From Zygnema cylindricum (taxonomy: Eukaryota; Streptophyta; Zygnematophyceae; Zygnematales; Zygnemataceae): a stretch of 64,000 nt of DNA. Location of the stretch: NCBI GenBank assembly GCA_037447655.1, contig JBBHKE010003220.1, positions 92,087 through 156,086 on the forward strand. Direction: 5' to 3'. Under the pieces are notes generated by a model. That model made no database searches. It saw only the letters and a program-made list of their open reading frames with translations, and had not been told where the DNA came from. Every line of letters starts with the position of its first letter. The stretch's first letter is position 1. Made by a program: the position numbers and the translations under genes. Below, in pieces: positions 9,567 to 59,466 of this stretch.

Positions 9567-10368
9567 TCTAATCAGTCGTTGTTGCCAAGGCTTGGCCACT
9601 CTTTCCTCCCCTTTGGATCTCAATTGTATTCTCTTGAACGAGAATCATCCCTACCACTGAGTTCCATATCCACCTTGAGTCAGGCAAGTCCTGCACACGG
9701 TAAACTATGTTCACGAACTCATCAGGTAACTTCATCAGTAAACAGTTAACCTTTTCTTTTTCACTAAAATCTTTTCCTGCACTCTCTAGCTTCCTGAAGA
9801 GTGTAGCAAGCTCATTGCAAAAATCAAACATATTTCCCCCTTTGTATACATACTCCTTAACTTTTTGATCAGCCAACTGTTGTTGCTGAATCGTACCACT
9901 TCGGTACATCTCTATGAGAGCCATCCAAAGATCGGATGCCCATTCTACCTGCATATGAGGACATGCAAGTCCTTGAGTGAGATGGCGTAGGATGAAGTGC
10001 TTTGCCGCCATATTGTTGAAGTCCCAGGTTTCAGTATCATTCTCCTCGTTCCTCGGAATAGGTGACATGAATGTCGAACCAGTTGTTATTGGCGTGGTCG
10101 CCTCCTTCTCCTTTCCTTTGTCCACCACCTCTCCTTCTTTTGTTTCCTCCGTTGAAGGTGGATCCTCTTTCCTGGTGAATCTGGTTCCTCCAAACCCTGG
10201 AGGAATTCCAAGACTTGATGGACGCCCCAACCCTCCACTCACTATCCCCCAAAACCTTTTTTCGCATAGAGCTCCTATCATCATACTTTCCCAGTATATG
10301 AAGCCAGTTCCATTAAAGATTGGTACCCTAGAGGGTGGGCCCATAACCTGAAACTCTGAGACCTCCAT
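9567..10368 (-). CDS. Copia-A Gag (UBN2-type capsid)
   Basis: 266 codons from ATG at 10368, a start chosen because the same start is kept in copia-B, D, E and G. The first 20 bases lie inside the 5' LTR, so Gag begins MEVSEF in the LTR and continues QVMGPPSRVPIFNG across the primer-binding site. The central part (WDFNNMAAKHFILRHL, SDLWMALIEMY, CLLMKLPDEF) is typical of plant copia Gag of the UBN2 type, which forms the particle shell. The frame stops at a TAG near 9569 where relatives have Trp (DWRNKD); the zinc knuckle lies beyond this stop. In the intact relative Gag and Pol are one frame. Confidence 0.9.
10335..10348 (-). promoter_or_regulatory. Copia-A primer-binding site for half tRNA-iMet
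   Basis: Directly after the 5' LTR end (TTTCA) the minus strand reads GGTTATGGGCCCACC. This is the complement of the anticodon arm of plant initiator tRNA-Met (GGUGGGCCCAUAACC) as I remember it. Drosophila copia and yeast Ty5 are known to prime from this internal part of a cleaved initiator tRNA. Here the site is also Gag coding sequence. Confidence 0.8.
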
Positions 10369-22809: not shown

Positions 22810-25800
22810 GGTTATGGGCCTTTCGTCAAGAGTTCCTATCTTCAATGGCCAATAGTATGTGTACTGGGCGGCAATGGTTGAATCGTCGTTTGAAACTGTT
22901 GACTTATTAGGGGTCTTAGATGGCTCCCTTGATGAAACTGATCCAACTTGGGCAAAAAATAATTCAATGGCAAGGAACAATCTAATTCTTTGTATTTCAG
23001 AAAATTTGGTCATGTCCCGACTGAAACTGAAGAAGGCGAGGGAGATTTGACATCCCTCAAAACCGCTTTTGAGAAAGCGAATGTTCGAAGGAGCTTTTGG
23101 TGGCTGGAAAAATTTGGGGATACAAATACACGTGGGGAACTATGGTTGAGTATTGTGACAATTTTCGTGCGCTCATTGATGCTCACTCTTCTGCTGGGGG
23201 GTCATTTACTGAGTTTCAACAGGCAGCTTTGCTTATTAGAGGTCTCCCTAGTAGCATGAAGGGTGTGTCTGTTCAATTAAAGAGTCATGATAAAGCTAGC
23301 TGGTCATTTCAGTTAGCGTTTAATCTTATATAGGAGGAAGAAACAATCACTAAACTCCTTGAGGGAGAAGGAAAGGTTGAGGCACTTGCGACAGACTTTG
23401 ACAAAAGAAATCAGTTTAATCTGAATAGGAATCAGTTTAACCAGAACCAGAATCAGAATAATCAGAGGCAGAATAGGCCATCTACTACTACTTCTTTCTA
23501 TTGTTCTGAGAAGGGTTATGGATACAGGTACTGTCCTAAACTGAAGAAGGCTAATGAGACAGGTTTATACAGGCCAGGTTGGCAACAAAGTCAGTATCAC
23601 AAAGGTTTTTCTAGAAACCCTTCTCGTGGAAATGCTCTTTTTTCAGCTTCTGCAACTGATGCAGATGAGTCTCTCAACTTCAATGAGCAAGAGGAGGCGG
23701 ATTTATTTGCTATGGCGGCTTCCATGGAGGGTCGAAAGGATGCGGGATGGATCATGGACACGCGAGCATCTGCCCACATGTGTTGGAACAAGGCGGCTTT
23801 TACGAATGTGCAGCAAACATCTCCAAAGAGTATCTACTATGCTTGCGGCATGAGTTTTCAAACCTCAGCTCAGGGTGATGTATCATTGATAGTAGATGTG
23901 GGGGGGAAGTCGGTAGAGAGAACCCTTCAGAATGTTTTGCATGTTCCAGATTTCAAGAAAAATCTTTTTTCTACATCATTAGTGGAGCGCAAAGGCTTTG
24001 AGGTTGTTCTGAAAGGAGGGAGACAGGTTGTTAGCAAGAAAGGGAAAGTTGAGTAACAGGAACTAGAGATGCTTGCAAAATGTACCAGATAGACATGGCT
24101 GAATATAAAGAAAATGATGTTCTCTACTCCAGTGTCGAATCTGATAATGAGTTGTGGCATAAGAGATTAGGACACGGGAATTATGATAGTCTAAAGAAAA
24201 GGGTGAACTCGGGAAAAGTTGATGGAGTTTCTGTCACATCTCAGCCTATAAAAACATGTGATGGTTGTTCACTAGGCAAGATTCACAAATTGCCATTTCC
24301 ACAAGAAACAGACCATAGATCGGAAAAAGTTTTGCAGCTCATCCATTCTGATGATCTCGGTCCTTCACAAGTGGCTTCGGTTGGAGGTGTCCACTATATG
24401 GTCACATTCACAGATGACTACTCGAGGTACACCAAAGTTTACTTCATGCAACATAAGAGTGAAGTGTTTACTCACTTCAAACACTACAAAGCGTGGGCGG
24501 AAAAGCTTCATGGGGTTCCAATATTGGCGTTAAGATCGGACAACGGGGGAGAATACACATCAAAGGAATTCGAAGAATTTCTCCTTCAAGAAGGTATCTG
24601 TCACAATCTTACAGTTCCATATACACCGGAACAAAATGGTGTTTCTGAGAGATTAAATAGGACATTCACAAAGAGTGCTCGGTCCATGCTTGCAGAAAAA
24701 GGGCTAGATTTGAAATTCTGGGCTGAAGCGCTTAATTGTGCTGTTTATATTAAATATAGAATTGCTTCTAGGTCTGTTAGCACTACACCTAATGAGCTTA
24801 AGACAGGGGAAAAACCTGATGCTAGTCACTTTAAGATCTTTGGCAGCAAGTGTTTTATTTTAGATACTTCACATGATAGATGGAAAATGGAGGCTAAAGG
24901 CTTACTTGGGATTTTCATAGGGTATGATGATAATGCGAAAGGAAATAGAGTCTTTGTACTTGAGAAAAAGAAAGTGATTGTTTCTAGAAATATCCAGATT
25001 AAAGATGAACAGGATTCGGTTGACCTTTTTAAAGTGCCAGATCAACCGGCAAAAGAAAAGCAAGAATATGTCATTTTTCACCATACGCAGCGAGTCTACT
25101 TTCCACCGGCATGTGCACCTCTTCCTTCAGTTCCTCTAGTGCCTTTACAAGATGGTTCACCGCAAGCTACACCGCAGGTGGAAGGATCTACTACACATTC
25201 TGTACCAGATCACGTTACGGGTCAAACTAAACAGAAAAATTAGAGGTTGCCGACAATCTCACCCTTAGAATTTCCCGGGGGAAAGAGATCTAGCAGCCGT
25301 CTGCAAGCAAGCTCTCACTTTGTTTTTTCTGCAGCTACAAAGGAACCTCTAACGATCCATGAGGCCTTCTCATCATCTGAGAGAAATCAGTGGATCGAGG
25401 CGGCAAACGATGAAATGAAGTCCATTATGGAGGCACAAACATGGGAGCTAGTGGATCTTCCTTCGGGCAGGAAAGCCATTGGCAGCAAATGGGTATTCAA
25501 GGTGAAGCTGAACCCGTACAACACCATCGATAGGTATAAGGCCAAACTAGTGGCTAAGGGATTAAATCAAAAAGAAGGTATTGACTTTGAGGAAACCTTC
25601 TCCCCAGTTGTTAGATTTCCCACTGTCAGAATTTTGCTAAGTCTAGCAGCTATAGAGAATATGGAAATACATCAGATGGATGTTAAAACTGCTTTTTTGC
25701 ATGGAGAGTTAGAAAAAACAATTTATATGAAACAACCTGAAATGTATGTTGAAAAGAGAAAGGAAGAACTAGTGTGTAAATTGATGAATTTTGTATGGGC

Positions 25801-26916
25801 TAAAACAAGCTCCGCGTCAGTGGAATCTGAAGTTAGATGAGTTGTTAATTGGGCTAGGTTTTAAGAGAATTAGCTCAGATCATTCTGTATATTTTCTATA
25901 AGGAGAAGATGGGGTTATTTACTTTGCTGCATATGTGGATGATCTAATATTAATAAGTAAGTCAATGGATGAAATAAACCGTATTAAAGCGGCTTTAAGG
26001 TCTAGGTTCGCGATGAAGGACCTCGGTGAGGACAAATATATTTTAGGAATACAGGTAGAAAGAGACAAAAACAAGAGGCTGATTATGTTGACTCAGAAAG
26101 AAGCAATAGGTAACATGCTAGAAAGATTTGAAATGAAAGATATGAAAGGATCCGTAACTCCCATGGAATTTAGGAAGAAATTGGAAGGAATTAATACAGA
26201 TTCAGGCATAATTGTTGGTGAGAGTCTAGAGACAGGGGAGGAAGAGTTTATGGCTTCAAAGCCATATAGACACGTTGTTGGAAGTCCTATATATTTTATG
26301 AATTGTACGAGACCCGACATTGCGGCAACTGTGGGAGTCTTGAGTAGAAGTCTGCAAAATTCTAAAAGGGCAGACTGGGAAGCAGCGAAAAGAGTGTTGA
26401 GATATCTTGCAGGTATTCGAAACCTCAAGTTTGTTCTCGGAGGAGGAGAGGTGAAAATCTAGACGTGGAGCGATGCTAGCTATGGGGACATGCCAAGCCG
26501 GAATCTACGACCGGCTTCGTACTGAAGATTGGAGATGGAACTTGCTGCTGGAGTAGCAAATTACAAAAGGTTACAGCTCAATCCACAATGGAGTCAGAAT
26601 ATATGGCAGCAGCTTCCGCCCTGAAGGAGCTCCTATGGGTCAAGTCCATTCTACAGGAACTTCGGTATATGCAAACTGGCCCTCAAGCTATATGGTGTGA
26701 TAATCAAGCTGCCATAGAAACTGCCTCTAACCCAGTTATCACTATAAGAACAAACACATGGATGTTAGACTTCACTTTGTTAGAGAAAAAATACTTTCAA
26801 AAGTCGTTAAATTGTGTTATTTACCAGATGAGAAGATGGTGACTGACATGTTAACAAAAGCCCTTCCTGCGCCTAAGTTACAGTTTTGCAGAGATGCTGT
26901 TGGACTAAGAGAGTAA
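22751..26916 (+). pseudogene. Copia-C2 gag-pol, moderately decayed
   Basis: Gag starts at ATG 22751 in the LTR and crosses the primer-binding site (QVMGLSSRVPIFNG). The knuckle near 23500-23540 reads SFYCSEKGYGYRYC: the first Cys is Ser and the His is Tyr. Protease near 23755 reads MDTRASAHMC: the DTGA active site has become DTRA. The integrase frame 24080-25243 is open with HKRLGHGNYDSL, CDGCSLGK, DDLGPSQ, SDNGGEYTS and NGVSERLN, so D, D and E are present. Reverse transcriptase runs 25247-26462 (HQMDVKTAFLHGEL; catalytic YVDD near 25935), with a shift near 25790 and a stop near 25900. RNase H follows at 26460-26916 with stops and shifts near 26460 and 26500. Confidence 0.9.
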
Positions 26917-30801: not shown

Positions 30802-32173
30802 ACTAACAGAAATTGAACGCGAACTGTTAGATGAAGTCAAAAACCGAAACATAGACGCATTTGCTTTCTCTATGAAAGACTTAGGTCGACACACCACTTA
30901 CAAAATGTCTATTGACCTGGAAGTTGACAGACCTATATTTAAGCCCAAGCATCGTCTAACCAAAACTGAATGGGAATCTGTGGACAAACGATGCGCAGAG
31001 TTAGAAGAGGCAGGTCTGATTTATAGGTCCGATTCCACTTTCGCGGCGCCCACCGTCATGCCCTGTAAAAAAGATGCGGAGGAGAATTTTACAGAACATC
31101 GCATATGTGGGGACTATCGAGAATTGAATTCACGTACAATCTAGGACCGACATCCAATGCCCTTAGCCGAGGACATTATTTATCACGTGGGCAGAGCTAA
31201 GTACTTTAGCATCCTAGATCTGCGATAGGGATTTAATCAAATCGAAATAGAGGAAAAATATTGACACAAAACTGCATTTTGGGGTAGAGACGGACGTTGG
31301 GAAAGGGCAGTTATGCTTTTTGGACTGAAAAATGCACTGGCAGTATTCGAGAAAGTCATGGACTCAATCTTGGGGGGATGTAAGTTTGCCCATTGCTACA
31401 TTGACGATCTAATCATCGCTTAAGCCTCTATAGAGGAACATGCAGTCATATAGAGTGGGTGTTGAAGGAATTAAAAAAGGTAGGACTTAAATGTCATCCT
31501 GCTAAATGTACCTTTGTGGCCGAAAGGGTTCCATACCTTGGGCACTGTATCTCATTTGAGGGAATTACTCCGCTAGAAGTCAAAGTAGAAGCAATTAGTA
31601 AATTACCGGCTCCATCTGATTTGACTAGCCTGCGTGCATTTTTAGGGTTAGCCAATTATTAGCGGCGGTTTGTTCCTAGTTTCAGGGCACTTGCATCTCT
31701 ATTAAATGAACTCTTGAAGAAATGAGTCCCGTTCACGTGGGGACCCTCATAGATCGCGGCATTTTAGGGATTAAAGGACGCACTGTCCACCGCTCCTATT
31801 CTCCGTCCCCCAAATCATAAGTTGCCATTTTGCCTACAGACAGACTTTGGTAAGCCCGGTATTGCAGCCATCCTAACTCAGCGTGAACTCACAAGTGAGG
31901 AATATGTGGTGTCTTATGCCAGTCGGAGCAACAATCAAGCGGAGTCAAATTACAATATTTATGAGGGGGAGTGCCTTGCCGCAGTTTGGGGTATTGTGCA
32001 TTTCCGACATTATCTTTATGGCAAGCCTTTTACCCTTCTAACTGACCATCAACCATTGCATTGGCTCATGACCAATGACAAGCTATCCGGCAAATTAGCC
32101 CGTTGGGCTCTTACTTTACACGAATATGCCATGGAAATAATCCATCGACCCGGGCTCCTCAGTTTGAATGCCG

Positions 32174-32178
32174 ACGGC
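32174..32178. repeat. Target-site duplication ACGGC (left copy)
   Basis: ACGGC at 32174-32178 and 33449-33453 flanks the solo LTR. Removing the LTR and one copy joins NADG to LSRNP in frame, as in Gypsy-1. Confidence 0.92.
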
Positions 32179-33448
32179 TGTTGTCCATAGCCATTTTCAG
32201 CCATGGATTTACCCTCGGAAGCACCACAAACTACACAAAAACAGCCTACTTTGAATACACACAGAATTCTACAGAAATATCAAAACAAGCTAAAACTACA
32301 AACACAGATATTTTCTAGGCTAAAAAATAACCTCACAAAGTTTCAGACAAAAATAATAAACAGAGTGATCACATCATCTGGTCAAAGCTGCAGAAAAACA
32401 GTCTGCCAGAACTTTGATATAACCGGCCAACTTCACAATGAATTAAAACACAGAATAGGCATAAAATAGGCCTGAAAATCTGTGACACTGTTACCAATAT
32501 GGAGAGGAACACACATGCAAAGTTTTAGATAATTCTGCCTACAGATCTGAGAGTAATCCTCAGATAAAATTACCAAAAATCACCATAAACAGTTTTTGGT
32601 CCAGAAAAGTTCTTATATCTTAAAATGACTAAGTCCTACAAATATAAACTAGAGCTCACTACTGAACGTACGGAGGCATACCAGCCGTACGCTATCTACC
32701 AGCTACCCCAATTATTGTTAATATACCCGAATACTTCAAGGTATGTCAAAATGAGTAAAAGTACACTAATAACTAATTCACAAAAAGACAAAACAATGTT
32801 TTACCAAATATTTACACCGACAACAAAATCGTATGCTGAGTCATTGCGTGTAAGTCAACAAGACTCCACGAATCTCGTAAAACAATCCGAGCCGTCCAAA
32901 AATAGATATTGTGTGAATGACGCGATTTCGCGTCACCACTACTTGAAAAATACCGGCGGCCTTTGTCCGCCGTCCGTCGCTCTTGTTCGGCACCCTCGAT
33001 GTCGCGCCACGTGATCCCAAATTCCACTTGAAAAAAACGACGTCAAACCATCCAAATTTGTCCATAACGCAATTACGTACTTCGCCATAAATTACGCCTA
33101 CCAATTTTAACTACTCCTGTAAAATAACATTATTTGTACCGTCGCGTCCTTTTCCATAAATGCCACCTGTCACATTATGTTTCGTACGTGCGACGTACCA
33201 TTTAATGTCTTCGAATATTTTACGTCGGATCGCGTCGCAATCCGCCGTCCATTTCTTAACGCATTCCGCGCCACTCAATTACTCCATCACGTCCCTTTAA
33301 CTTTATTCATACATTTACTCCCCCAATCCACAAATCCATTCGAACCTCCATTTGTATAACCACATTACTTCCGGTAATAACATACGCACGAAACATCACG
33401 TGCGCACAAAATGTGGCGTACGCACGAAACTAGGTTTTCAAAACAACA
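32179..33448 (-). mobile_element. Solo LTR of family S inside Gypsy-2 RNase H
   Basis: 1270 bp read on the minus strand from TGTTGTTTTGAAAACC at 33448 to ATGGACAACA at 32179, with TSD ACGGC. Both ends and the 3' half are related to the LTRs of the element at 53770-56529 (TGTTGTTTTTGAAATG...ATGGACAACA); the middle is longer and diverged. Terminal TGTTGT/ACAACA is an inverted repeat. Apparent reading frames inside are not conserved. Confidence 0.85.
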
Positions 33449-34890
33449 ACGGCCTCTCCAGAAACCCTTTGCCCCACTCCAATGATAATGGTGTACGATA
33501 AGATTTTGATGACGAATCAGTTGCCTCCTTATCAGCCGGAGCACATCTGATTTACAGTTTTGCAACACCTACAAACCACAAAACCGAACACGATCCATGC
33601 CGGGACAGTGCTTTAATTCTTTTTCTATCTACTCAGTCTTTTCGGGCAGGCACCCTACCAATGGAAGAGGAGCGTGTTCGTAAGAGAGCCCAAAGTTACT
33701 TATGGATGGGGGGCTCACTTATTCGTCTTCTCTCAGATGGAAGTCACCGGCATGTCCCACGGCCGACGGAACGACTATCACTTATCAACCAAATTCATAC
33801 TGACCTTGGACACTATGGCACCAAACGGACTTTGAGTTTGGTACAGGCACGGTATTGGTGGTCCGGCATGCAGGCTGATGTGGCGGCTGTGTTGCAGGAA
33901 TGCAACACATGTGACCGGTTACGAACTTCATTTTCTAACCGGCAGACCTCTCTTCAACCATTGTCTATTCGCGGTCTCTTTTACAGGTGGTCGTGTGACT
34001 TGGCTAGTCCCTTTCCAATCTCGCGAAGGGGCAAGCAGTACATTATAATTATAATCTAGAATTTCAGCAAATGGGTGGAAGTTGTGGGCCTCTCGCAGAA
34101 AACCGCCAAACTCACCACTGCAGCTTTCAAACAGCATGTGCTTCTCCGATACGGAGCCCCCGCAAAAGTACTCACCGACCAAGGAATCGAATTCCGTGGC
34201 GAATTTTAGGAGATGCTGGACGAAGCGTTAATCGATCACCGGCGGACGAGCAGAGATCATCCTCAAGCAAACGGTTTGGCAGAGAGAGCTGTACAAACCT
34301 TTAAGCGTGCTTTGCGTAAACATTGCTTAGAAACACAGATTACGGTGTGGGATGAATCATTGGGATATATTGTCATGGGTTATCGCATGTTTGTACAGGC
34401 TAGTCTAGCAAATTTCAGCCCCTACTATGTGTTGTTTGGTCGAAATCCGCTACTAGGTAGGAATGTACAGAAAGCCGCGAGCTTACCTCTACCTCTTATG
34501 TCGGATTCTTTGTTTTTGGAAGAACTGACGAACCGAGCGTTGCTTTTCGCTAGAGAAATGCCCATGGCTTTTGAAAACTTGCAGATTGCCTAACATCGAG
34601 ACTCCTTACGGTTTGCAACAACTCGCAGTGGCAGTTACCGGCCACAACAAAAACCCTTCCGGGTGGGGGATTACGTTTATTTGCGGCGGCAAACTTTTGA
34701 TACACTCGACACGGATGTTTCAGCTCACATCTTGAGGATAACAAAAATCGACCCGAATGGATTATTAAGCCTACAAGGGGCCGACACGCGAACTTTGCGG
34801 GAGCATTCAAAGAATTGTGCCCCCTGTTATCTACCCGATCTTTCCCACAGCATGGACCTGTGGCGGATGCCGATTACTCAGGCCATTGAG

Positions 34891-35067
34891 TGCTAGTTAT
34901 GCTGGCGATCTGATGGAGAAACAACAATGCTACTTTGTGACTATTGCAATCTGGAATTCCATATGGAGTGTTTGGTTCCACCTCTGCACACTATCCCGGT
35001 TGGACATTGGTTTTGCCACGGGTGTCACAACCTACCGGCTGTCCTTACCAGCTCCCCTGCAGGCTAA
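34891..35067 (+). other. PHD finger at the C-terminus of Gypsy-2 pol
   Basis: In frame with the integrase tail. Ligands: Cys 34891, x2 (one codon is TAG), Cys 34900, 11 residues, Cys 34936, x2, Cys 34945, x4, His 34960, x2, Cys 34969, 14 residues, then WFC (Cys 35014), x2, Cys 35023. This is the full C4HC3 pattern with classic neighbours (MLLCDYC, FHMECLVPPL, GHWFCHGC). Frame ends at TAA 35065. PHD fingers usually read the N-terminal tail of histone H3. At this place chromoviruses carry a chromodomain that steers integration, so a targeting role is a fair inference. The TAG inside the first zinc knuckle makes this copy inactive unless read through. Confidence 0.85.
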
Positions 35068-35088
35068 AGAGTTGGGGGGGGGGGGGAA

Positions 35089-35329
35089 TTCCATCCTTAC
35101 TTACCTGATCTTGTTTTGTCTTTTCTTTCCTGGCTAAGTCCATGTGTTCGGAATAAGTTGTTTCTTTTCGGGCAGATTTATTCATTATTCTTTTCAGTAT
35201 ACATCCTTTGTTCTCCGATTGTGGTCACAAATACTGTACATATGTAGTGGTCATTCATTTGCTGGTGTTTTTCGGCGACCCACGCGGGATGTGATGCATG
35301 CCATCCACGGTTGTACTGTCATGCAAGAC
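35089..35329 (+). repeat. Gypsy-2 3' LTR remnant
   Basis: Follows a polypurine tract (AAAGAGTTGGGGGGGGGGGG, about 35067-35087). Only about 240 bases remain before the copia-C1 LTR resumes; the TGTCATGCCG start of the LTR is not found at 35089. The end ATGCAAGACA resembles the end ATGCACGACA of the solo LTR 44607-45906. TSD ATATC follows. Confidence 0.55.
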
Positions 35330-36059
35330 ATATCGTTGATGCGAGATATATTCGACGGACGCGATTAAAGCAGGGACCACAATGAGTGAGTGCGCCGTAC
35401 GCACTCAGGACGCTCCTACCATCGAATCAACATTCATTTGGACTTTTGCGGCTGATGCTGACTAAGCATCGGTAACATTAATTGTACGGGCAATATCTGT
35501 AATTATTTGGAAAACAATAAGTTAACGTTTAGTGAATTAATTAATAGTGGTACACTATTTATTTAGCGGCATGTAGTAATTAGGGTTTTGGAGGTACTCA
35601 CGATACAATAAAGTAGTGGCTGGATACTTTGTCGTAAGTCAAGATAGTAGTTTAGTACAGTCACCCGAATTAGTGGCTGGTTACTTTGTCGTGAGTCAAG
35701 ATAGTACTTTAGTACAGTCACCCGAATTTGTGTAGACCAGTAGATACCCACTGTGAGTATATAGTTTAGGACTTAATCAAATTTGTATTATCCAGTTTTG
35801 GGAATAAGATTTTCTAAGGGCAGTTTTTAGGAGAATTCTAGACATCATATCTTATGGTTTACTTGGTCATTTAAGCTGCTATTTTGGGAATTGTAAGTTT
35901 AATGTGTTGTGTATAACTGGGACAAATTTGAGGTATATTGGGTTTTTGAATAATATTTTGCTGGCTGTTGAGTAGGTGTTTGATAGTTTTTGTTGATTTA
36001 ATGTCTACTTCCACTACTACTGCTGGTTCTCCTCCTGCAACGGTGGTTGTATAACAACA
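35330..36059 (+). repeat. Copia-C1 3' LTR, second piece
   Basis: Matches 15235-15914 of the 5' LTR, ending ATAACAACA, then TSD TGGCG (36060-36064). An internal tandem duplication of about 60 bp (TAGTGGCTGG...CACCCGAATT) lies at 35611-35735. Confidence 0.88.
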
Positions 36060-41198: not shown

Positions 41199-44100
41199 CT
41201 AGTCTATCTTTTGCTTCAGTCCACACTTCTCCCTACAAAATATCAATTTAGGAGAAGGAACCGGTTTAGTCATCATATCTGCTACCATCTCACCATTTGG
41301 TCTATGTTCTAAAATAATGATTTTTTTCTCAACTTTCTCCCTAACAAAGCTCAAATGAATATCCATGTGTTTTTCTTTAAAATGATGCTTAGGGTTTGCT
41401 GCAATTGCAATCGCAGCTTGATTGTCACAAAATATCTTTTGTACTCCATTCTTCATGTGTCCTAATTCTTGAAGCAAAGATTTCACCCACATTAATTCTT
41501 TCACAACCAAACAAGAGGCCATATACTCAGCCTACATGGTGGACTGAGCAATCACCTTTTGTTGCTTACTGCTCCAACAGCAAGCCCCATTCTCAACATA
41601 CAACACATACCCAGAAGTACACCTCCTCATCGGAGCATCCCCATAACTCGCATCACTCCAAGTAGTGATGTCAGTGTTATCCCCACCCAGATGCAACCAC
41701 AAATCTCTCGTTCCTACCAAATACTGCATTACCCTTTTGGTTGATTCCTAATCTTTCTTCCTAGGATCATTCAGACTCCTAATTATCACTCCCACAGCTG
41801 CAGCTATATCAGGACGAGTACAATTCATAAAGTAGATCAAACTACCGACAACCTGTGTGTACGGAATAGTCTGCATGAACTTGCTTCCCTCAGGTCCTAG
41901 CTCATTATCCAAGATGAAGACTCCCTCCTCTGAGCTCCCCTCATTTCTCTTCTTTAAGTCCATTGGAGTCGTAGAGCTATTTGCTTTTTCCATTTGAAAT
42001 TTTTCAAGCATGTTCCCAATTACTTCCTTTTGAGTTAGTCTAATTGTTTTCTTTTATCTATCCCTCTCCATTTGAATTCCCAAAATGTACTTTGCCTCCC
42101 CCAAATCTTTCATTTCAAATCTACTCTTTAGATCCTTTTCCAATCTATTAATTTTCACCATTGATTTACTCAAAACAAGTAAATCATCAACATATATGGC
42201 AATGAAGATTATACCTTCCTCATCCTCAAATAAGTAGATGGAATGATCCGAACTGATTCGGATATATCCCAAACTCGTCATAAACTCGTCCAGCTTTTTG
42301 TTCCACTAGCATGGAGCTTGATTTAGTCCATAAAGGGACTTTATCAATCTGCACACCTTGCTTTGTTCTCCTTTCTCCACAAATCCTTCCGGTTGTCGCA
42401 TGAAGATCTCTTCTTCCAATTCTCCGTGTAAGAAAGCGGTTTTGATGTCCATCTGGTGCCCTTCAATGTCTTCCGCTGCCGTGAGACTAAATAGTATTCG
42501 GATGGAGGGGAATCTAACAACTAGAGCAAAAGTCTCCTCATAATCGATTCCCTCCTTCTGTGTGAACCCCTTTGCCACTAATCTGGCTTTGTATCGCTCG
42601 ATACTGTTATTTGGATTGAGCTTCAACTTAAATACCCACTTGCATCCTACTGGTTTTCTATCTGGCTGACAATCCACCAACTCCCAAGTGTTTGCTTCCA
42701 TAATGGAAGCCATCTCATCATTGATAGTTGTCACCCATCTACCACCTTGTGGACTATTAACTTCTTCCGAGTAAGTCTGGGGTTCGTTCAAATGTGACAG
42801 CTTAGTTACTTTGTTGTTCACTTGTCTCTCTTGAAGTCTCTTGCTGCTTCTCCTTCCTCCTTCAAATTTTGACGTTGGGATGGAGGGTAATCACGGGTTT
42901 CTCTTAACAACTTCACCTTCTCCCCTATCCGTGGAGTCCATCTCCGGTCGTTCGTCGTCCATTTCTGGTCTTTCCTCGTTTTCTTTCTCAGTTTGAATCG
43001 GAAGTTGTGACTCCAAGAGAGGGTCATTCTCGGTCAGTTATTTCTCTTCCTTTGCAAGGTCAGGCTGAACCGGAGTTCGTTTAGTAGAATCTGCATCTAA
43101 CTCACTTTCGGATTCAATTCTAATTCTGACCGGTTTAGTATACTTAAAGGGATCTATGGATTTTCCTTCATCCATAACTACCAAGTGTTTTACTAGAATT
43201 ATGTCTTCTCTACCGAGATCATAAACTCTATACCCTTTTACGTTCTCATCATACCCAAGTAAGTATCTCGGCTTTCCTCTAGCATCTAACTTCCAATCAG
43301 ATTTTTCTGTGTTTAAACTAAACACTTGACTTCCAACACCTTTAAGTGTGATATGTTAGGTTTTCTCCCGGTCCATCTTTCATAAAGTGTTTGACCTTTT
43401 ATAGCTGAGGTAAGGACTCTATTATTGAGATAGCACAATTCATAGCTTTTGCCCAAAAACTTTTCCTTATTTTTTATCCGTCAACATACTACGGGCTTTA
43501 TCACTTAATGTCCGATTTAGTCTCTCGGCTATACCATTTTGTTCCGGGTTCTTTGGGACAGTCTTTTGGTGTTGAACCCCTTCCTCTTTCAAGTAATCCT
43601 CAAACTCAATAGAAGTGAATTCCCCCCCATTATCACTTCTCACTCTCTTAATAGGTGTCTCATGAAGCTTTTCACTCCATGATTTATATTCTTTAAAATA
43701 AGCCGAAGCCTCAGATTTGTTTTTCAAGAAATATACTCTAGAGTATCTAGACCAATCATCAGTGATAGTAAGCATAAATCTTTTCCCTCCAACTGATGGC
43801 ACTTTGGCCGGTCCCAATATGTCAGTATGAACCAAATCTAAAATCTTTTCACCCTTATATGTTGCGACTTTTGGAAAAAGCAACCTGTGGGCTTTTCCTT
43901 GAGCACACCCACTACAATCATCCAAAGTCTCATCATCTCCAAAATGTATGCCCTCAACTACACCCATTTTTTTCATTTCCTTCAATCTATCTAGATGCAC
44001 ATGTCCCAATATTTTATGCCACATCATCAAATCACTTACACCAGCATAGTAAACTCGCGTCTTTCCATTACTCAAATTCAGCCTAAACATTCCTTGGCTA

Positions 44101-44606
44101 CCCTTTTCAGCTATGAAGTACACTTCATTCTCATACCTAGCAACAAAGACTTCTTTCTTAGTACTCGGCTCAAAACCTTTATCATCTAAGACCGACGTAG
44201 AGATAAGATTCTTGTTCAACTCTGGGATAAAAAGAACATAAGAGAAAGTGACTATGGATGCCTTTCCATCAACCAAAACTCTCAGATCCACAGATCCCAC
44301 TAAATTAGTGGTGACTATTCTCCCATCCCCATACTCTATCTCTACAGTAGGGATCTTTCTCATTTTGGTAAACAATGGTTTTTCTCTACACATATGCATA
44401 GAGGCTCTTGAATCAATGATCCATCCTTCTCCAGGAGCTTTTTTCACTCCACCGAAAGCACACTTTTGCCTCCTTGGAATCTCCAGCTCACCATTCACCT
44501 CCAACTCCTCGTTGAGGAGAAGTTCTCCATCGTTATTATCGGCATCCTCTCCCACAACTTGTGTCGCCACAAACGACTTCTTTTTCCTTGCGGCTAGTTT
44601 TCCAAT
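41199..44606 (-). pseudogene. Copia-E pol (protease, integrase, RT, RNase H), decayed
   Basis: Starts after the nested LTR with GKLAARKKK, an acidic linker (DADNNDGELLLNEEL) and protease IIDSRAS near 44420; the usual DSGAS has Gly to Arg. The integrase frame 43467-44606 is open with HKILGHVHLDRL, CSGCAQGKAH, HTDILGPAK, SDNGGEFTS and NGIAERLN (D, D, E). Frameshifts near 43335 and 43450 lead to the linker (YDENVKGYRVYDL near 43250). Reverse transcriptase lies at 42054-42821: HQMDIKTAFLHGEL near 42430, SLYGLNQAP with a stop near 42308 and YVDD near 42185. RNase H (41199-41729) has WSDASYGD and CDNQAAIA. Dead copy, diverged from copia-A. Confidence 0.9.
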
Positions 44607-45906
44607 TGACATGCCGCATCGTATCGGTTGCTAGCACGCACAGTATGGGGCACGCTTGCACGACTTTTGGCACGCGCGCACGGTGTTTGACGCGCGCGTA
44701 CGGTATTTTGCATGCACGCACGCTTAGTTTGCTTGCGATATCGCCGATTTATCTATTTGGGACGTGTACGCGATTCGCGTGCACGTTTCGTTTGAACATG
44801 TACTAATTTAGTGTGATTTGTTTTGTTTCGTGCGTAGGTACACGATTTTGGAGTATAGAAGTGGAATATCGTTTGGGCAACGCATCGGGATTTCTAAAGT
44901 ATTTCGTGCGGTATGGTTTGCTTTGTGCGTATGCACGCGATTTCGGAGTATAGACGCCAAGTATCGTTTGGCGACGAGGCGTGATTTCCGCGAGCGTTGG
45001 CGACGCTTCCATGTACCTTTCATTCATTAAAGTCGCGAACCCATGTTGGTTCGCGCATACATGTAGTTAGGGAGGGTTTTTACCCTCGGACTGTGGATTC
45101 TGTTAGGCGTACGGCAGACGATGTGGCCGCCTATTGGCCAACATCTTAGGTAGTTCCATTCATGTAAAGTAGGCTAGACTTAGGCTAGTTTTGCTCTAGG
45201 CGTAGCTTAGCCCCTACTTAGGCATTCTCAAACTTAGAGAATTTAGCTTTTGGACAAGATTTTCTCTTGGCGGAGGAGCTTTTCTCTTGCTCTCTCTCTC
45301 ACCGATTACTCAAGTTTCTTTTTTTTTTTTGCTAGCTAGCTGTAGAGGCTAGATAGTTTACGTATATTCTCCCTTGTAATTCTGCCCACGCTTTTAATCC
45401 ACGTGGCTTAAAGCCAAGTCCGAAAGGTTTCCCTCAAACTTGTGTCATTTTGGGAAGTGGTGGATTGGAGTTTGTGTGGAGAAGCATCCGGATCCGGCTG
45501 TCCTTCCCACGGATAGCTGAACGGTTTGGGCATTTGTATTTGTATTGTTTGTATTTTCGGTTGGGAATGGAAGGGTGAATTTGGGCCGAATTTGGAGTTT
45601 TCCTTGTTTTTGGTTGGAATTATTTATTTTGCTTCGTTAATTTCCTATGAGATAACTCTTGTAAAGAATACGTTGACGACCCAAGAGCATAGTGGCTACA
45701 TTGTGGCCGAGTATAAATTATAGGATTCACTTCACGCTAGGGGAGTATTCTTCCCTTTTCCTTTTTGTTATTTTCACCTTTATTCTTTTGCATGATGTAT
45801 ATACGTTTTTTCTTTCTAATTCATTTTGCGTTGGTGTATATGGTTGTGAGCATGACTTGGTTGGTTAGTATGCATGGTTTACCTTGCCTCTCACTTATGC
45901 ACGACA
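44607..45906 (+). mobile_element. Solo LTR of the Gypsy-2 LTR superfamily inside copia-E
   Basis: About 1300 bp between the Gag knuckle region (KEES) and Pol (IGKLAARKKK) of copia-E, from TGACATGCCGCATC to ATGCACGACA. Related to the LTRs at 20765 and 62879 by the start TGxCATGCCG, the paired hairpins (45034-45087) and GGTTTCCCTC and AGTGGCTAC blocks. Flanks CCAAT and AAAAT are an imperfect duplication, so exact ends are uncertain by a few bases. Contains no gene. Confidence 0.7.
45034..45087 (+). promoter_or_regulatory. Paired hairpins in the solo LTR
   Basis: CGCGAACC/GGTTCGCG (8 bp stem, loop CATGTT) at 45034-45055 and GAGGGTTTTTACCCTC (6 bp stem) at 45072-45087. Compared with 21003-21062, several paired bases have changed on both sides. 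Confidence 0.55.
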
Positions 45907-51315: not shown

Positions 51316-52362
51316 TGTAAAAACTAATGGTTTTAAAGTATTTTCTAGGTTTGAATAGAAATAAAGAAGCCGAGGCAGTCTACCTCTAACTTCTCTCTCC
51401 AACTCTCAAACTTGTCGCAGTCACTGAGAAATTGGAGAGGAAGCTAGAGCCATGGCTACCTAGGCTATCGTGAGGTTTACGGGAAATTTATACTAGTTAA
51501 GGGATTATTTACTAAAAGGTATGTGCCGGCCACAGGATTTGATCCTGGTACCTGCCGGCCGACAACCAGATATAGCCGGTAGCCTTAGCCGTTAAGTCTA
51601 GCAGTAGTGTTACATATTATATAGTACGGTATTTACTTAAACATTAATATGTAGGTTTAATCATTTAACTGTAACTGTTTACGGTATACATAGATTCGGT
51701 AATGTATAAGTACGGAATACGGTACATGCACGAAATCAATACCGCGCATTTATTTCGTAAGTGAAACCAATACCGCGCATGTATTTATAACGGCTACGAT
51801 TAAATTAGATTCTAATCGGACGGTCGGAATTAGCGCCGAGATCGCGAAAGAAGATTTCGGCGGTTTGTGGCCATCGCCACATCGGATGACGCGTGGCGAA
51901 ATTACATTGGATCGTGGAATCTACGGAGATTATGGCACCGAATCCGGATATGACATGTGTCGACATTTAGGCCATGTCGTACAATGTTCGTACATAAAGT
52001 ACACCGGCAGCTGTACTTTTGCGTACGGAACTGTATTCTGATTGGTTCCGTACATCAGTAGATAGAGTCTGTGAGAGAGATAGGACTTAGAAAAATTAGG
52101 AGATAGGACCCACTCTCCCAGAGAGCTTTTGTACAAAAGGTCAACTTTGACCCTCCATAACTTACTGCTCAGGGGAGCAAATTCAGAGATTCTTTTTGCT
52201 ATCAACTCAGGGGAGTCTTGCCTTCAGAGAGGTGCAAGTGGTCGGGGTTTTTGTCTGCCAGGGTGGCAGTTATTTTTGCTGAAACATAAAGGGGTCAGGA
52301 TTATCCTAGAGGCTTCTTGGAAGCTGTCCACTCTGAGGACTTATGGAGGTCTCAGAGTTTCA
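51316..52362 (+). repeat. Copia-D 5' LTR
   Basis: 1047 bp from TGTAAAAACTAATGG to GAGTTTCA. The tRNA-like module is at 51527-51602 in reverse orientation. The Gag ATG lies 20 bases before its end. Confidence 0.95.
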
Positions 52363-52377
52363 AGTTATGGGCCCACC
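52363..52377 (+). promoter_or_regulatory. Copia-D primer-binding site
   Basis: AGTTATGGGCCCACC directly after the LTR; half-tRNA-iMet type, first base changed relative to copia-A. Confidence 0.75.
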
Positions 52378-53764
52378 CTCTAGGGTACCAATATTTAATG
52401 GAACTGGATTCATATACTTGGAAAGTATGATGATAGGAGCTCTATGCGAAAAAAGGTTTTGGGGGATAGTGAGTGGACGGTTGGGGCGTCCATCAAGTCT
52501 TGGAATTCCTCCAGGGTTTGGAGGAAGCAGATTCACCAGAAAAGAAGATCCCCCTTCAACGGAGGAAACAAAAGAAGGAGAGGTGGTGGACAAAGGAAAG
52601 GAGAAGGAGACGACCACACCAATAGCAACTGGTTCGACATTCATGTCACCTATTCCGAGGAACGAGGAGAATGATACTGAAACCTGGGACTTCAACAATA
52701 TGGCGGCAAAGCACTTCATCCTACGCCATCTCACTCAAGGACTTGCATGTCCTCATTTGCAGGTAGAAAGGGCATGCGATCTTTGGATGGCTCTCATAGA
52801 GATGTACCGAAGTGGTACGATTCAGCAACAACAGTTGGCTGATCAAAAAGTTAACGAGTATGTATACAAAGGGGGAAATATGTTGGATTTTTGCAATGAG
52901 CTTGCTACACTCTTCATGGAGCTAGAGAGTGCGGGAAAAGATTTTAGTGAAAAAGAAAAAGTTAACTGTTTACTGATGAAGTTACCTGATGAGTTCGTGA
53001 AAATAGTTTACCGTGTGCAGGACTTGCCTTACTTAAGGTGGATACGGAACTCAGTGGTAGGGATGATTCTCGTTCGAGAGAATATTATTGAGATCTGAAG
53101 AGGAGGAAAGAGTGGCTAAGCCTTGGCAACAGCGACTGATTGGAGGAACAAGGATACCCGAAAATCGGTCCGAAACTATAGGGGTAGGGAGCAGAAAAAA
53201 CAGGTTGACGAGTTCGAACCAAGGGCTCCCAAAGGTTTATGTCATTTTTGTAAGAAACCGGGGCACTATATGGCAGAGTGCACTAAGCTAACCGAGCTTC
53301 GGCTAAAGGAAGGGCAGACCGGTGGTACCCCGAGAGGAAAGAAAAAGGCCCTTGTCACACATGTACTTGAGGCGGAATCCGAGGACGAGGACGATGAGCT
53401 CCTTTTGGATGAGGAGTTGGAGGCGAAAAATGAGGTTGAAATTCCACGAAGGTAGAAATGTGCTTACGGTGGATTGAAAGGTGAAGCAGGCTGGATCATA
53501 GATTCAGGTGCCTCCATGCACATGTGTAAGAATAGGCACCTGTTCACTAAGATAAGAAAGATTCTCACCGTAGAGATAGAGTACGGGGATGGGAGGATAG
53601 TCACCAGTACTCTTGTAGGATCGGTAGATCTGAAAGTGTTAGTAGAAGGAAAGACATCCATATTAACATTCTCCGATGTATTGTTTATTCCGGAGCTGAA
53701 CAAAAATCTTATCTCTACATCAGTATTAGATGATAAGGGTTTTTTTACTAGCACTAGGGAAGGA

Positions 53765-53769
53765 GTTTT
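53765..53769. repeat. Target-site duplication GTTTT (left copy)
   Basis: GTTTT at 53765-53769 and 56530-56534. Removing the insert restores GVFTASFEE as in copia-A. Confidence 0.92.
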
Positions 53770-54589
53770 TGTTGTTTTTGAAATGTTAGTTTCGTACTTA
53801 CGCCACATTTTGTGCGCACGCGACGGTTCGTGTGTAGATTATTACCGGAAATATTGTGGTGGTACAAATGGAGGTTCGAATGGATTTGTGGATTGGGAGA
53901 GTAATTGTACAATTGAAGTTAAAGGATTGTATTTTGATAATGTGGTATCAAGTGGACGGTACGTATGTGATGTCGGTTCATGACGTGGTTTCGTCCTCAA
54001 GTGACTAATCAAGTTGATACTCAGTACGCGGATTTTACGGAAGCGTCGATGTAAATATTTGGTTGAACATTGATGTGTCTTTTTGTGAATTAATTATTAG
54101 TGTAGATTTACTCACTTTGACATACCTTGAAGTATTCAGGTATACCGACATTAATAGAGGTAGCTGGTAGATAGCGTACCGCTGATATGCCTCCGTACAT
54201 TCAGCAGTAAGCTCTTGTATATATTTGTAGGACTTCGTCATTTTAGGACATAGGAACTTTTTGGACCAAAAACTGTTTATGGTTATTTTTGGTAATTTTA
54301 TCTGAGGATTACTCTCAGATGTGATAGCGGAATTATCTGAAATTCTGCTTGTTTGTTCCTATTTATATTTTTAATATTGTCACAGATTTTCAGGTCTATT
54401 GTGTGCCTGGTCTGTGTTTTACTTCATTGTGAAGTTAGCCTGTCTGATCAAAGTTCTGGCAGACTGTTTTTCTGCAACTTTGACTAGATGATGTGATCAA
54501 TCTGTTTATTATTTTTGTCTGAAACTTTGTGAGGTCATTTTATATCCTAGATAATATCTGTAAATGTAGTTTCAGCTTGTTTTGTTATT
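53770..54589 (+). repeat. Family S 5' LTR, 3' end missing
   Basis: Identity with the 3' LTR stops after GTTTTGTTA. The following sequence is gag-like coding DNA. Confidence 0.9.
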
Positions 54590-55298
54590 TGTTTTAGATG
54601 AAGAAGATGATAAAGAGGCTTTAAAGAATAGGGGGAATTTTCAGGGTGTGAGATCACAATTTCAGAAAAATAGAGAAAACGGTAAATCAGAAAATTGTTT
54701 TTATTGTAATGATTTAGGACATACTTTTAGAGTATGTCCACTTTATAAAAGTGCATGTGTCACAGGAAATTTTCGAAATGGATGGGATGACTATCGGGTT
54801 CTACCCCCTACACGAAAGGCTACACTTCACGTTGATGAATTTGTATACTTGCCGACTGTTATTTTTCTAAATATGGAAAATGAGGAAAGAAGGGAAACAT
54901 GTGCTGTCACCGAAAATGGAGTGGAGAATGAGGTGACAGAAAAGGATTTGGTTTTTGTCAATTTTTCCGATGACAAATTGGTGAGTGATAAAGATTTACA
55001 GGAGGAAGAGGATAATGTAATGAGGATAGCTGGAGAGAGTGAAGGTCAATTAGAAATGGAAACTGAAAATAATTTGCATGAGGAGATTACTGTACTTAAA
55101 GAGGGAAAGAGAAAAAGTGTTCAAAAAATTGAAGTAGGAGAGGAAGTTTATATTATTGGAAAAGAAAACAAAAGTTCAAAAATTGAGAAAATACCAAAAT
55201 TTATTAAAAAAACAAAGAAAATAAGTAGAAGTAAAAAGATAAACCGTAGAAGAAAACATGTTCAGAAAATGGTCAAAAGAAAGCATCGTGGAAAATGA
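54582..55298 (+). CDS. Truncated Gag-like protein with CCHC knuckle and basic tail
   Basis: 238 codons open from 54582, but the first four or so codons come from the LTR, so the true N-terminus is lost at the 54589 junction. A zinc knuckle CFYCNDLGHTFRVC (CX2CX4HX4C) lies at residues 38-51, the RNA-binding signature of Gag. A long acidic middle (residues 90-170) follows, then a strongly basic Lys/Arg tail (about residues 195-238, with KKTKK, SRSKK and NRRRK). No protease or capsid is recognised. The frame is free of stops, unlike its neighbours, which fits a young element. The tail could be a nuclear signal or bind nucleic acid (inference). Confidence 0.7.
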   Translation: MLFVLDEEDDKEALKNRGNFQGVRSQFQKNRENGKSENCFYCNDLGHTFRVCPLYKSACVTGNFRNGWDDYRVLPPTRKATLHVDEFVYLPTVIFLNMENEERRETCAVTENGVENEVTEKDLVFVNFSDDKLVSDKDLQEEEDNVMRIAGESEGQLEMETENNLHEEITVLKEGKRKSVQKIEVGEEVYIIGKENKSSKIEKIPKFIKKTKKISRSKKINRRRKHVQKMVKRKHRGK

Positions 55299-55612
55299 TT
55301 TTAGGGAAAGTAATTATCTTTTACATTTAATATTTTTTTGACGAATTTCTGATTTAAAACTTTAAATTTTGAAATTGTGTGAGAAGGAAAATTTTTACTT
55401 TGAAGACCTAGAAAGAGGTAGTGGAAGCAATGGTGTGTTTAGGAAGGAAGGATTTTGGAAGACATGGCAGCAGGCAGTTGGAGCAGTGGCGACGTCAGCG
55501 GAAGCAGTGGTGATGTCAGCGGAAGCAGTGGTGATATTTGAACGAAAGGTACACTTTCATTTGACACGCGGCATACTTTATAATGGGTGCACGAAACTAA
55601 AATTTCAGGGAG
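55299..55612. other. Family S internal 3' region
   Basis: No gene. Contains a short imperfect tandem repeat GTCAGCGGAAGCAGTGGTGA at 55491-55530. The sequence before the LTR ends TTTCAGGGAG, a weak polypurine tract. Confidence 0.6.
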
Positions 55613-56529
55613 TGTTGTTTTTGAAATGTTAGTTTCGTACTTACGCCACATTTTGTGCGCACGCGACGGTTCGTGCGTAGATTATTACCGGAAATATTGT
55701 GGTGGTACAAATGGAGGTTCGAATGGATTTGTGGATTGGGGGAGTAATTGTACAATTGAAGTTAAAGGATTGCATTTTGATAATGTGGTATCAAGTGGAC
55801 GGTACGTATGTGATGTCGGTTCATGACGTGGTTTCGTCCTCAAGTGACTAATCAAGTTGATACTCAGTACGCGGATTTTACGGAAGCGTCGATGTAAATA
55901 TTTGGTTGAACATTGATGTGTCTTTTTGTGAATTAATTATTAGTGTAGATTTACTCACTTTGACATACCTTGAAGTATTCAGGTATACCGACATTAATAG
56001 AGGTAGCTGGTAGATAGCGTACCGTTGATATGCCTCCGTACATTCAGCAGTAAGCTCTTGTATATATTTGTAGGACTTCGTCATTTTAGGACATAGGAAC
56101 TTTTTGGACCAAAAACTGTTTATGGTTATTTTTGGTAATTTTATCTGAGGATTACTCTCAGATGTGATAGCGAAATTATCTGAAATTCTGCATGTTTGTT
56201 CCTATTTATATTTTTAATATTGTCACAGATTTTCAAGTCTATTGTGTGCCTGGTCTGTGTTTACTTCATTGTGAAGTTAGCCTGTCTGATCAAAGTTCTG
56301 GCAGACTGTTTTTCTGCAACTTTGACTAGATGATGTGATCAATCTGTTTATTATTTTTGTCTGAAACTTTGTGAGGTCATTTTATATCCTAGATAATATC
56401 TGTAAATGTAGTTTCAGCTTGTTTTGTTAATTCTGTTGAATTCTGTGTGTATCCAAAGTACGCTATTTTTAGGGTAATCTGTGGTGCTTCCTAGGGTGAA
56501 TCCATGGCTAGAAATGGCTATGGACAACA
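55613..56529 (+). repeat. Family S 3' LTR (complete)
   Basis: 917 bp, TGTTGT...ACAACA, followed by TSD GTTTT. Confidence 0.92.
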
Positions 56530-59466
56530 GTTTTTACTGCTAGTTTTGAGGAGGATGTCTATTTCATTGCTGAGAAAGGTAGCCATGAGATGTTTAGGCT
56601 GATTTTAAGTAATGAAACGAAGAAACTTTATTATGCTGGTGTTCATGATATTATGATGTGGCATAAGAGGCTTGGGCATGTGAATCTAGATAAGTTAAGA
56701 GAGATGAAAAAGATGGGAGTGGTGGAAGGGATTCAGTTCAGTGAGAGTGATGATATAAGTGATTGTAGTGGATGTGCTCAAGGTAAAGCACACAGATTAC
56801 CCTTTCCTAAATCAGCCACCTATAAGGGAGAAAAAATTCTAGATCTAGTACACACAGATATTTGGGGACCGGCTAAAGTGCCCTCACCGGGGGGGAAGAG
56901 ATTTATGATGACTATAACTGATGATTGGTCTCGGTATTCCCGGGTGTATTTTTTGAAAAACAAGTCAGAAGCTCAGGATTGTTTTAGACAATATAAAGCT
57001 TGGAGCAAAAAACTCCATGAAACTCCAATCAAGAGAGTAAGGAGTGACAATGGTGGAGAGTATACTTCTAACCCGTTTGAGGATTTTCTGAGGGAAGATG
57101 GGGTCCAACACCAAAAGACAGTTCCAGAAAATCCGGAATAGAATGGGGTAGCTGAAAGGTTAAATAGAACACTAAGTGATAGTGCTAGAAGTATGTTGTC
57201 AGATAAAAAGATAGGAAAAAGGTTTTGGGCAGAAGCTATGAACTGTGCTAATTACCTCAAGAATAGAGTTCTTACTTCAGCTATAAAAGATCAAACACCT
57301 TATGAGAGATGGACAGGCCGGACACCATACATATCTCACTTAAAGGTTTTCGGCAGTCAAGTGTTCAGTCTAGATACTGATCGGTCGAATTGGAAGCTAG
57401 ATCCTAAAGGAAAACCGGGATACTTATTAGGATATGATGAAGATGTTAAAGGATATAGAGTTTATGATCTAAAAAGGGAAGATATAATCTTAGTAAAGCA
57501 TCTAGTAGTTATGGATGAAGGAAAGTCTGTGGATCCCTTCAAATATACGAAGTCAGTAAAAATCAGATTTGAGTCAGAAAATTCCGATGACTTTGAGCTT
57601 CCTAACTATCCAAGTTTTAGAGAAGATGACATTCTTGCAGGAACAAATCAGACTGAAAAGGACTCGGCTGTGGAAACTCCAGTGACAACTCTACTCGAAG
57701 CGGAAGACGTGGTGGAAATTGATTCGGAATCAAGGGATAGGGGAGAAGTCGAGTTTGTTCGAAAGAATGCACGAGAACCATCTATTCCGGCCTCAAATTT
57801 TGAGGGGGGGAGGAGAAGTAGCAAAAGACTGCAAGAAAAACAGGTTAATAACAAGGTAACTAAACTATCTCATCAAGATGAACCTCAAACTTATGGAGAG
57901 GCGATGACTTGTCCAGAAAGAAACCGGTGGAAGACAGCCATCAATGAGGAGATGGCCTCAATCATGGCAGCCGATACTTGGGAGCTGGTGGATTGTCCAC
58001 CTTACCCAAAACCAATCGGTTGTAAGTGGGTTTTCAAATTAAAACTGAACCCAGATAACACAATCGAGCGCTACAAGGCCAGATTAGTGGCAAAGGGATT
58101 TACACAAAAGGAGGGAATTGACTACGAGGAAACCTTTGCCCCGGTGGTCAGATTTCCCTCCGTCCGCATACTTCTCAGTTTAGCAGCAGCGGAAGACATG
58201 GAAGGGCACCAGATGGACATCAAGACAACCTTTTTGCATGGAGAATTGGAAGAGGAGATCTTCATGCGACAACCCGAAGGTTTTGTGGAGGAAGGAGAGG
58301 AGAGTAAGGTATGCCGGCTGATTAAATCTCTTTATGGTTTGAAACAAGCGCCTCGACAATGGAATAAGAAGCTTGATGAGTTTCTTACCGGTCTGGGATA
58401 TATTCGGATCAGCTCAGATCACTCAATCTATGTTTTCGAAGATGAGGAAGGTTTTATATTTATTGCAATTTATGTTGATGATTTGCTTGTTTTAAGTAAA
58501 TCAATGGAAAAAATTAATAAACTGAAAATCGATCTTAAGGGTAGATTTGAAATGAAGGATATGGGAGAAGCAAAATACATTTTGGGTATTCAAGTAGAGA
58601 GAGACCGAAAAAGGAAAATTATAAGACTGACTCAAAAGGAAGCAATAGGGAACATGCTTGAAAAATTTCAAATGGATAAAGCTAATAGTTGTACAACTCC
58701 AATGGAGTTGAAAAAGGGAAGTGAGGGGAGTAAGGAAGAAAGAGTCATAGTCTTAGACAAGGAATTATCTCTTGATGAACAGAAGTTCATGCAGACTATT
58801 CCTTACAGGCAAGTAGTGGGAAGTCTAATCTATTTTATGAATTGTACCCGGCCGGATTTAGCTGCAGCTGTAGGAGTGTTGAGTAGAAGTCTAAATGCTC
58901 CCACTAAGAAGGATTGGGAGGCAGCTAAGAGAGTCCTTAGATATTTGATAGGAACTAGGGATCTATGGTTGCTTTTGGGTGGGGAGAATACTGACATCAC
59001 TACTTGGAGTGATGCTAGTTATGGTGATGCTCCAATGAGGAGATGCACTTCTGGATATGTATTATATGTGGGTGATGGGGCTTGCTGTTGGAGTAGCAAA
59101 CAGCAAAAGGTTATTGCTCAGTCCACCATGGAGGCTGAGTATATGGCCTCTTGCTCTGCTGTAAAAGAATTGATGTGGGTCAAGTCTTTGCTTGGTGAGT
59201 TTGGTCACCTTAAGAGTGGTGTGCAGAAAATATTTTGTGATAATCAGGCAGCAATCGCTATTTCTGCCAATCCTAAACATCATTTTAAAGCCAAACACAT
59301 GGACATCAGACTCGGCTTTGTTAGAGAGAAAGTAGAAAACAAAATAATCAGTTTAGAGTACAGACCAGATAGTGAGATGGTAGCAGATATGAGGACCAAA
59401 CGTGTGCCTTCCCCTAAGCTATCTTTTTGCAGGGAGAAGTGTGGTCTGAAATTAAAGATTGACTAG
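56530..59466 (+). pseudogene. Copia-D pol (integrase, RT, RNase H), one stop
   Basis: Resumes after the insertion at VFTASFEE. Integrase zinc HKRLGHVNLDKL...CSGCAQGKAH lies at 56660-56800. Catalytic D in HTDIWGP, D in SDNGGEYTS and E in NGVAERLN lie at about 56855, 57050 and 57150. A single TAG at 57139 replaces Gln just before NGVAER. From 57142 the frame is open to 59466: linker GYDEDVKGYRVYDL, RT HQMDIKTTFLHGEL, SLYGLKQAPRQW and YVDD near 58470, RNase H WSDASYGD near 59008, EAEYMAS and CDNQAAIA, end KCGLKLKID. All RT and RNase H catalytic motifs look intact. Confidence 0.94.

Follow-up and report, generated by a model that had tools for sequence, protein, structure and literature searches.

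With moderate confidence, we read one element of the window (the whole 64,000-nucleotide stretch of DNA analysed here) as a decayed copy of a Ty3/gypsy retrotransposon whose Pol carries a PHD finger in place of the chromodomain, a finger that would tether the integrase-cDNA complex to nucleosomes with H3 unmethylated at K4. Tethering to such chromatin is its most likely role, given its best matches in the PDB and the Gly that it has in place of a Trp. Chromatin targeting by the finger is plausible as judged from its sequence, and the finger is under purifying selection.

The PHD finger of the window copy and of its relatives

The earlier note on this DNA had described a C4HC3 finger in frame with a gypsy integrase tail, and such a finger is indeed found there, with a TAG between its first two Cys. 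The parts of this copy in the window are as follows, L011 being an intact relative:

31067-31722, + strand: reverse transcriptase (RT) fragment, same copy as the finger (tblastn with L011 RT, two pieces, 86% and 90% identity)
31768-32187, + strand: RNase H fragment of the finger's copy, open frame (PF17917, 118.5 bits); the element breaks off at about 32177
32178-33448, no strand assigned: foreign repeat interrupting the PHD gypsy copy (the L011 match halts at 32177 and restarts at 33449, at the same place in L011)
33748-34884, + strand: integrase region of the dead copy, from the zinc-binding domain to the tail (94.5% identity to L011 over 379 aa)
34594-34890, + strand: integrase C-terminal tail, in frame with the PHD finger (within the match to the L011 integrase)
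34891-35025, + strand: PHD finger (C4HC3), C-terminus of Pol, with an internal TAG at 34894-34896 (PF00628, 38.2 bits, piece 34897-35064)
35068-35087, + strand: purine-rich tract after the Pol stop, a putative polypurine tract (from the sequence)
35084-35330, + strand: B repeat, right part of a split direct repeat (89% match to L011 B2), with no A repeat after it

Finger and integrase tail share one frame, which is closed by a TAA at 35065-35067. The Pfam PHD profile suggested as a check (PF00628) matched the piece after the TAG with an E-value of 1.5e-9, its score lying above the cut-off of 24 bits. With stops read as X, the six frames of the window contain a single loose C4HC3 pattern, whereas 100 codon-shuffled windows contain none. 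Folding the window finger by itself from its single sequence gave a pLDDT of 45, too low for a usable model. In the integrase tail no Pfam family was matched at E<=0.01, and no chromodomain was found there; the integrase region as a whole matches Integrase_H2C2 with 60.1 bits.

The finger had also been described as broken only by the TAG. The TAG is present, but the integrase-PHD frame has three further stops, so that its four stops lie at 34057, 34207, 34591 and 34894, and a repeat is inserted in the copy. Because of the four stops and the interrupting repeat, we consider the window copy dead. Two parts of this repeat, 32178-32821 and 33294-33448, match 53769-56530 of the window in inverse orientation. 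A G-rich tract similar to that following Pol in the window is present after Pol in L009, L010, L011 and L016, and also in L014 and L015.

The genome searched with the Pfam PHD profile comprises 352.8 Mb in 2,689 contigs, the window lying on contig C2415. The search gave 984 candidates, at least 150 of them over the cut-off, and 64 PHD loci were taken from 150: L001-L056, mostly top-scoring or with long frames, and L072-L079 from the rest. The same integrase-PHD fusion as in the window was found in 59 of the 64 loci (51 of the 56 in L001-L056 and all eight of L072-L079), and the five loci without it (L001, L012, L013, L031 and L040) look like host genes.

Fifty-one copies were studied closely; as they were chosen mostly from the top of the score-ranked list, intact fingers are over-represented among them, and there may be allelic duplicates in the set (L042 and L043 resemble each other). 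The finger is free of stops in 46 copies and interrupted by one in five, and all eight C4HC3 ligands are kept in 47, a ligand being missing in the other four. The last ten integrase residues are stop-free in 49/51 copies and the last sixty in 31/51, and in 46 the Pol stop lies 13 residues past the finger. At least 250 open aa stand ahead of a stop-free finger in 14 of the 51, and more than 1000 in L011, L014, L015 and L034, the L011 copy having the longest open frame (2395 aa) among the PHD matches listed. Scores with PF00628 range from 38.2 to 40.3 bits in the window copy and the other copies scanned. These counts support the expectation that intact members keep the finger in frame. A stop always separating integrase and finger had been named as grounds for refutation; at the place of the window TAG all 51 related copies are free of stops, and a constant separator of this kind is ruled out.

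Between subfamilies the finger shows a dN of 0.07-0.18; of the 16 pairs, 15 are saturated at synonymous sites and one has a dS of 3.2. The integrase core shows a dN of 0.04-0.09 in the pairs computed. The finger thus evolves faster than the core. Its low dN against saturated dS indicates that selection maintains it, under a looser constraint than the catalytic core with its lower dN.

Elsewhere the window contains Copia-type protein fragments, at 7618-9567 (- strand), 24053-25837, 43470-44630 (- strand) and 52337-59463, with Pfam matches to RVT_2, gag_pre-integrs, Pol_BBD and SH3_retrovirus; long near-identical direct repeats flank some of them. At 60654-61485 two arms of about 350 nt each (89-91%) form an inverted repeat with a 133-nt centre.

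Architecture of the element, its methylase and its split repeats

The intact copy L057/L011, whose frame was scanned against Pfam in pieces, has in a single frame a zinc-knuckle Gag region, a DNMT3-like methylase, RT, RNase H, a DDE integrase and the PHD finger. The CCHC knuckle scored 20.0 bits (cut-off 20.8), and an aspartyl protease ahead of the methylase gave a weak match of 18.9 bits (cut-off 24.3). The assignment of the element to Ty3/gypsy stands, since the L011 RT (RVT_1, 106.6 bits) has the Ty3 RT as its best PDB match (1.4e-75). Ty3 is also the PDB relative of the L011 integrase, and the domain order RT-RNase H-integrase, with H2C2 and rve, was found in L011 and L014. The integrase pieces of L011, L014 and L016 gave no match to a Chromo family at E<=0.01, in agreement with the claim that the PHD finger stands where a chromovirus chromodomain would be. 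On these three copies chromovirus identity was rejected.

The C5 cytosine methylase (PF00145, 47.8 bits) lies inside Pol, before the RT (L011:753-2102), and its nearest PDB relatives are DNMT3A and DNMT3B. Of the 42 copies that extend 3400 nt or more upstream of the finger, 27 contain a match to it, most of these 27 having only its C-terminal part within the fetched stretch, and 15 contain none. The catalytic motif is Trp-Glu-Cys in all three copies that cover it (L011, L014 and L047), the usual motif being Pro-Cys. Against L011, the methylase dN is 0.17 for L014 (191 codons) and 0.18 for L047, with synonymous sites saturated in both cases; L014 and L047 both carry stops in the stretch compared. 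A methylase search of the window gave no match at E<=1e-5, so the window copy lacks this part.

A second, distant gypsy family is present at the left edge of the window:

1-2291, + strand: second gypsy family, broken, with RT (window edge to 395) and integrase (about 1154-2291) (tblastn with L011)
2340-2495, + strand: degenerate C-terminal PHD finger of the second family; third Cys missing, stop codon at 2370-2372 (PF00628)

In tblastn its RT is 54% identical to that of L011 and the integrase pieces 49%, 62% and 40%, and Integrase_H2C2 gave 53.8 bits. The part of the finger after the stop (2373-2495) scores 25.4 bits with PF00628, the cut-off being 24. Just upstream of the window, L080 contains a methylase frame (L080:417-1400; 37.4 bits) with DNMT3A as its nearest PDB relative, 38% identity to the L011 methylase and the usual Pro-Cys-Gln as catalytic motif. 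As both families have both domains, the pairing of PHD finger and methylase would be older than their split, unless it was gained twice.

The integrated element has the order A1-coding-B1-A2-B2, that is, DIRS-like split direct repeats. A1 lies ahead of the coding part, and in L009, L010, L011 and L016 the Pol is followed by B1 (about 190-245 nt), A2 (about 930-1220 nt) and B2. In L058/L011, on contig C1344, A1 and A2 are 100% identical over 931 nt and B1 and B2 99.6% over 243 nt, and the element ends read TGTCATGC...GCACGACA. Whole long terminal repeats at both ends are absent, the ends being A1 and B2. The three copies read at both ends (L011/L057/L058, L034/L059/L067 and L007/L068/L069) all combine split repeats and DDE-type ends with 4-bp target duplications, which are TTGG, TAGA and TTGT. 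At the B1/A2 joint both element ends abut, with about 2 nt between them; allowing for a few mismatches, this joint was found in 32 of the 51 tails and not in 19. Of six guessed left ends, only L068 extended to the end; two others matched in part and three not at all. The B repeat was not found in the tails of L014 and L015, nor in L070 and L071. A tyrosine recombinase was not matched in the scanned Pol pieces, a scan to which the A and B repeats are external. We infer that the integrated order corresponds to a two-LTR circle opened inside one LTR, at the B1/A2 joint.

The left end of another PHD-gypsy copy is found at 62878-64000, where the contig ends with the window:

62878-63818, + strand: A repeat, left end of another PHD-gypsy copy cut by the contig end (89% match to L011 A)

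This repeat starts with TGTCATGC, and the inner boundary after it resembles that of L058.

Candidate roles of the finger

Met-Leu-Leu-Cys, an Asp after Cys3, a Gly two residues before the zinc-binding His and Trp-Phe are typical of H3-tail readers, and H3K4me3-reading PHD fingers have a Trp two residues before the His ligand. Met-Leu-Leu-Cys, this Gly and Trp-Phe are present in 51/51 copies, and the Asp in 49/51; in L034 a Gly replaces it, although 1166 aa upstream are open. The closest PDB structures among the best 60 of 71 matches are PHF12, Lid (KDM5), BAZ2B, WSTF, KDM5B and PHF21A/BHC80, and most of these fingers bind unmodified H3 tails. In sequence the finger resembles the H3K4me0 readers Lid/KDM5, BAZ2B, PHF21A and PHF12. 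A reading of H3K4 methylation, which the earlier note had in mind, is weakened by the Gly that all copies have for the Trp and by best matches that are mostly readers of unmodified H3.

In the mechanism that we favour, the PHD finger would bind the N-terminal tail of H3, most likely with K4 unmethylated, and once bound would tether the integrase-cDNA complex to nucleosomes of this kind; the substrate of the methylase may be either the cDNA or the new insertion. The tethering would parallel that in chromoviruses, whose chromodomains are held to direct the integrase to nucleosomes methylated at H3K9. The ING2 PHD finger, used as an engineered tether, reads H3K4me3, and the gypsy finger is unlike it at the cage position. 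In the review PMC8149907, ING2-PHD and HP1-chromodomain fusions to an integrase tether are reported to have redirected HIV integration in cells.

The finger could have other roles, in assembly, in nuclear import, in the service of the methylase or in binding a non-histone partner. It might mainly serve the methylase, recruiting the DNMT3-like domain to those nucleosomes of the new insertion that lack H3K4 methylation and having little part in target choice; the ADD domain does likewise for the host DNMT3A. The co-occurrence of methylase and PHD finger in both families looked at and the kinship of the methylase with DNMT3A/3B are in favour of this role. However, finger and methylase lie far apart in Pol, the finger being next to the integrase, and the weak protease match suggests that the two may be cut apart, so that we regard it as unlikely.

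A similarly low probability is given to a structural or protein-partner module, involved in integrase folding, multimerisation or the binding of a host factor, in which histone reading has been lost. Several PHD fingers do bind other proteins, but the H3-reader residues are kept in nearly all copies and many of the best PDB matches are H3 readers, which argues against such a loss. It is extremely improbable that the C4HC3 pattern is a chance remnant or belongs to a neighbouring host gene outside Pol: the stop inside the finger of the window copy would fit this explanation, but the fusion recurs in nearly all PHD loci, some with more than 1000 open aa before the finger, and the intact copies rule out a chance origin.

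Tethering of the integrase-cDNA complex to K4-unmethylated chromatin is therefore the role that we prefer. A broader proposal, possible but doubtful, is that of an old (probably algal) gypsy clade with a "reader-writer-inserter" Pol, in which a PHD finger of H3K4me0 type would select nucleosomes with unmethylated K4, the integrase would insert there and the DNMT3-like domain would methylate the new copy. Insertion would then proceed from a circular or split-repeat intermediate opened at the abutted ends.

Relation to described elements

Chromoviruses are Ty3/gypsy elements containing a chromodomain, such as CRM and Tcn1. Like them, the PHD gypsy has the RT and integrase of Ty3/gypsy, and its integrase ends in a domain of chromatin-reader type, but it has a PHD finger for the chromodomain, split for whole terminal repeats, and an extra methylase. 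CR1-like LINEs with a PHD finger are said to have been described by Kapitonov and Jurka in 2003; they are non-LTR elements, whose Pol, unlike that of the PHD gypsy, is not of the LTR type. DIRS elements use a tyrosine recombinase and make no target duplication. The arrangement A1-coding-B1-A2-B2 is shared with DIRS, PAT and Ngaro elements (as described in part in the available text of PMC5890265), whereas the DDE integrase and the 4-bp target duplications, with no tyrosine recombinase in the scanned Pol pieces, set our element apart from them.

Judged by its published description, the closest described element is KnitGypsy-Dnmt3 from Klebsormidium nitens (PMC5890265), and the likeness to it makes an algal host probable here. 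According to the main text it has, as here, a Dnmt3-type methylase embedded in a gypsy Pol, and according to a figure legend DIRS-like repeats with gypsy domains. Its methylase has a Ka/Ks <0.2 (PMC5890265, main text), and here too the methylase dN is far below dS between subfamilies. The words "PHD" and "chromodomain" are absent from the main text of PMC5890265, figures, supplements and sequence aside. The remark that no described plant gypsy clade with this fusion was known is thus only partly right. No gypsy integrase with a PHD finger was found in the open papers surveyed, mostly at the level of literature listings, but KnitGypsy-Dnmt3 shares the Pol-embedded Dnmt3 and the DIRS-like repeats and may itself have a PHD finger. 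"PHD" is likewise absent from the accessible text of PMC6317226, on plant LTR classification, and of PMC2774666. For streptophytes and dinoflagellates, DNMT3 has been reported in Copia elements and in DIRS elements (PMC12344493, 2025), and in the portion available these retrotransposon DNMT3s are presented with gypsy not named and no PHD mentioned. The Ginger1-9_HM element, which has a PHD finger, a gypsy-like integrase and a Ulp1 domain (PMC2836005, in the part available), shares with the PHD gypsy a mobile-element PHD and a gypsy-like integrase, but it is a DNA transposon and has no LTR-type Pol.

Textbooks illustrate the chromatin guidance of retrotransposons with chromodomain integrases. 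A conserved PHD finger in the place of the chromodomain, together with a methylase, would point to the recruitment of another histone reader by gypsy elements, and the PHD-integrase fusion makes target choice testable. Moreover, split repeats with DDE-type ends raise a question of replication, that of a gypsy integrase using ends inside the supposed LTR. The PHD gypsy would be a natural counterpart of the artificial PHD tethers that redirect retroviral integration (PMC8149907). If the "reader-writer-inserter" proposal is true, PHD fingers would be a further targeting module of integrases, beside chromodomains and motifs that bind host proteins.
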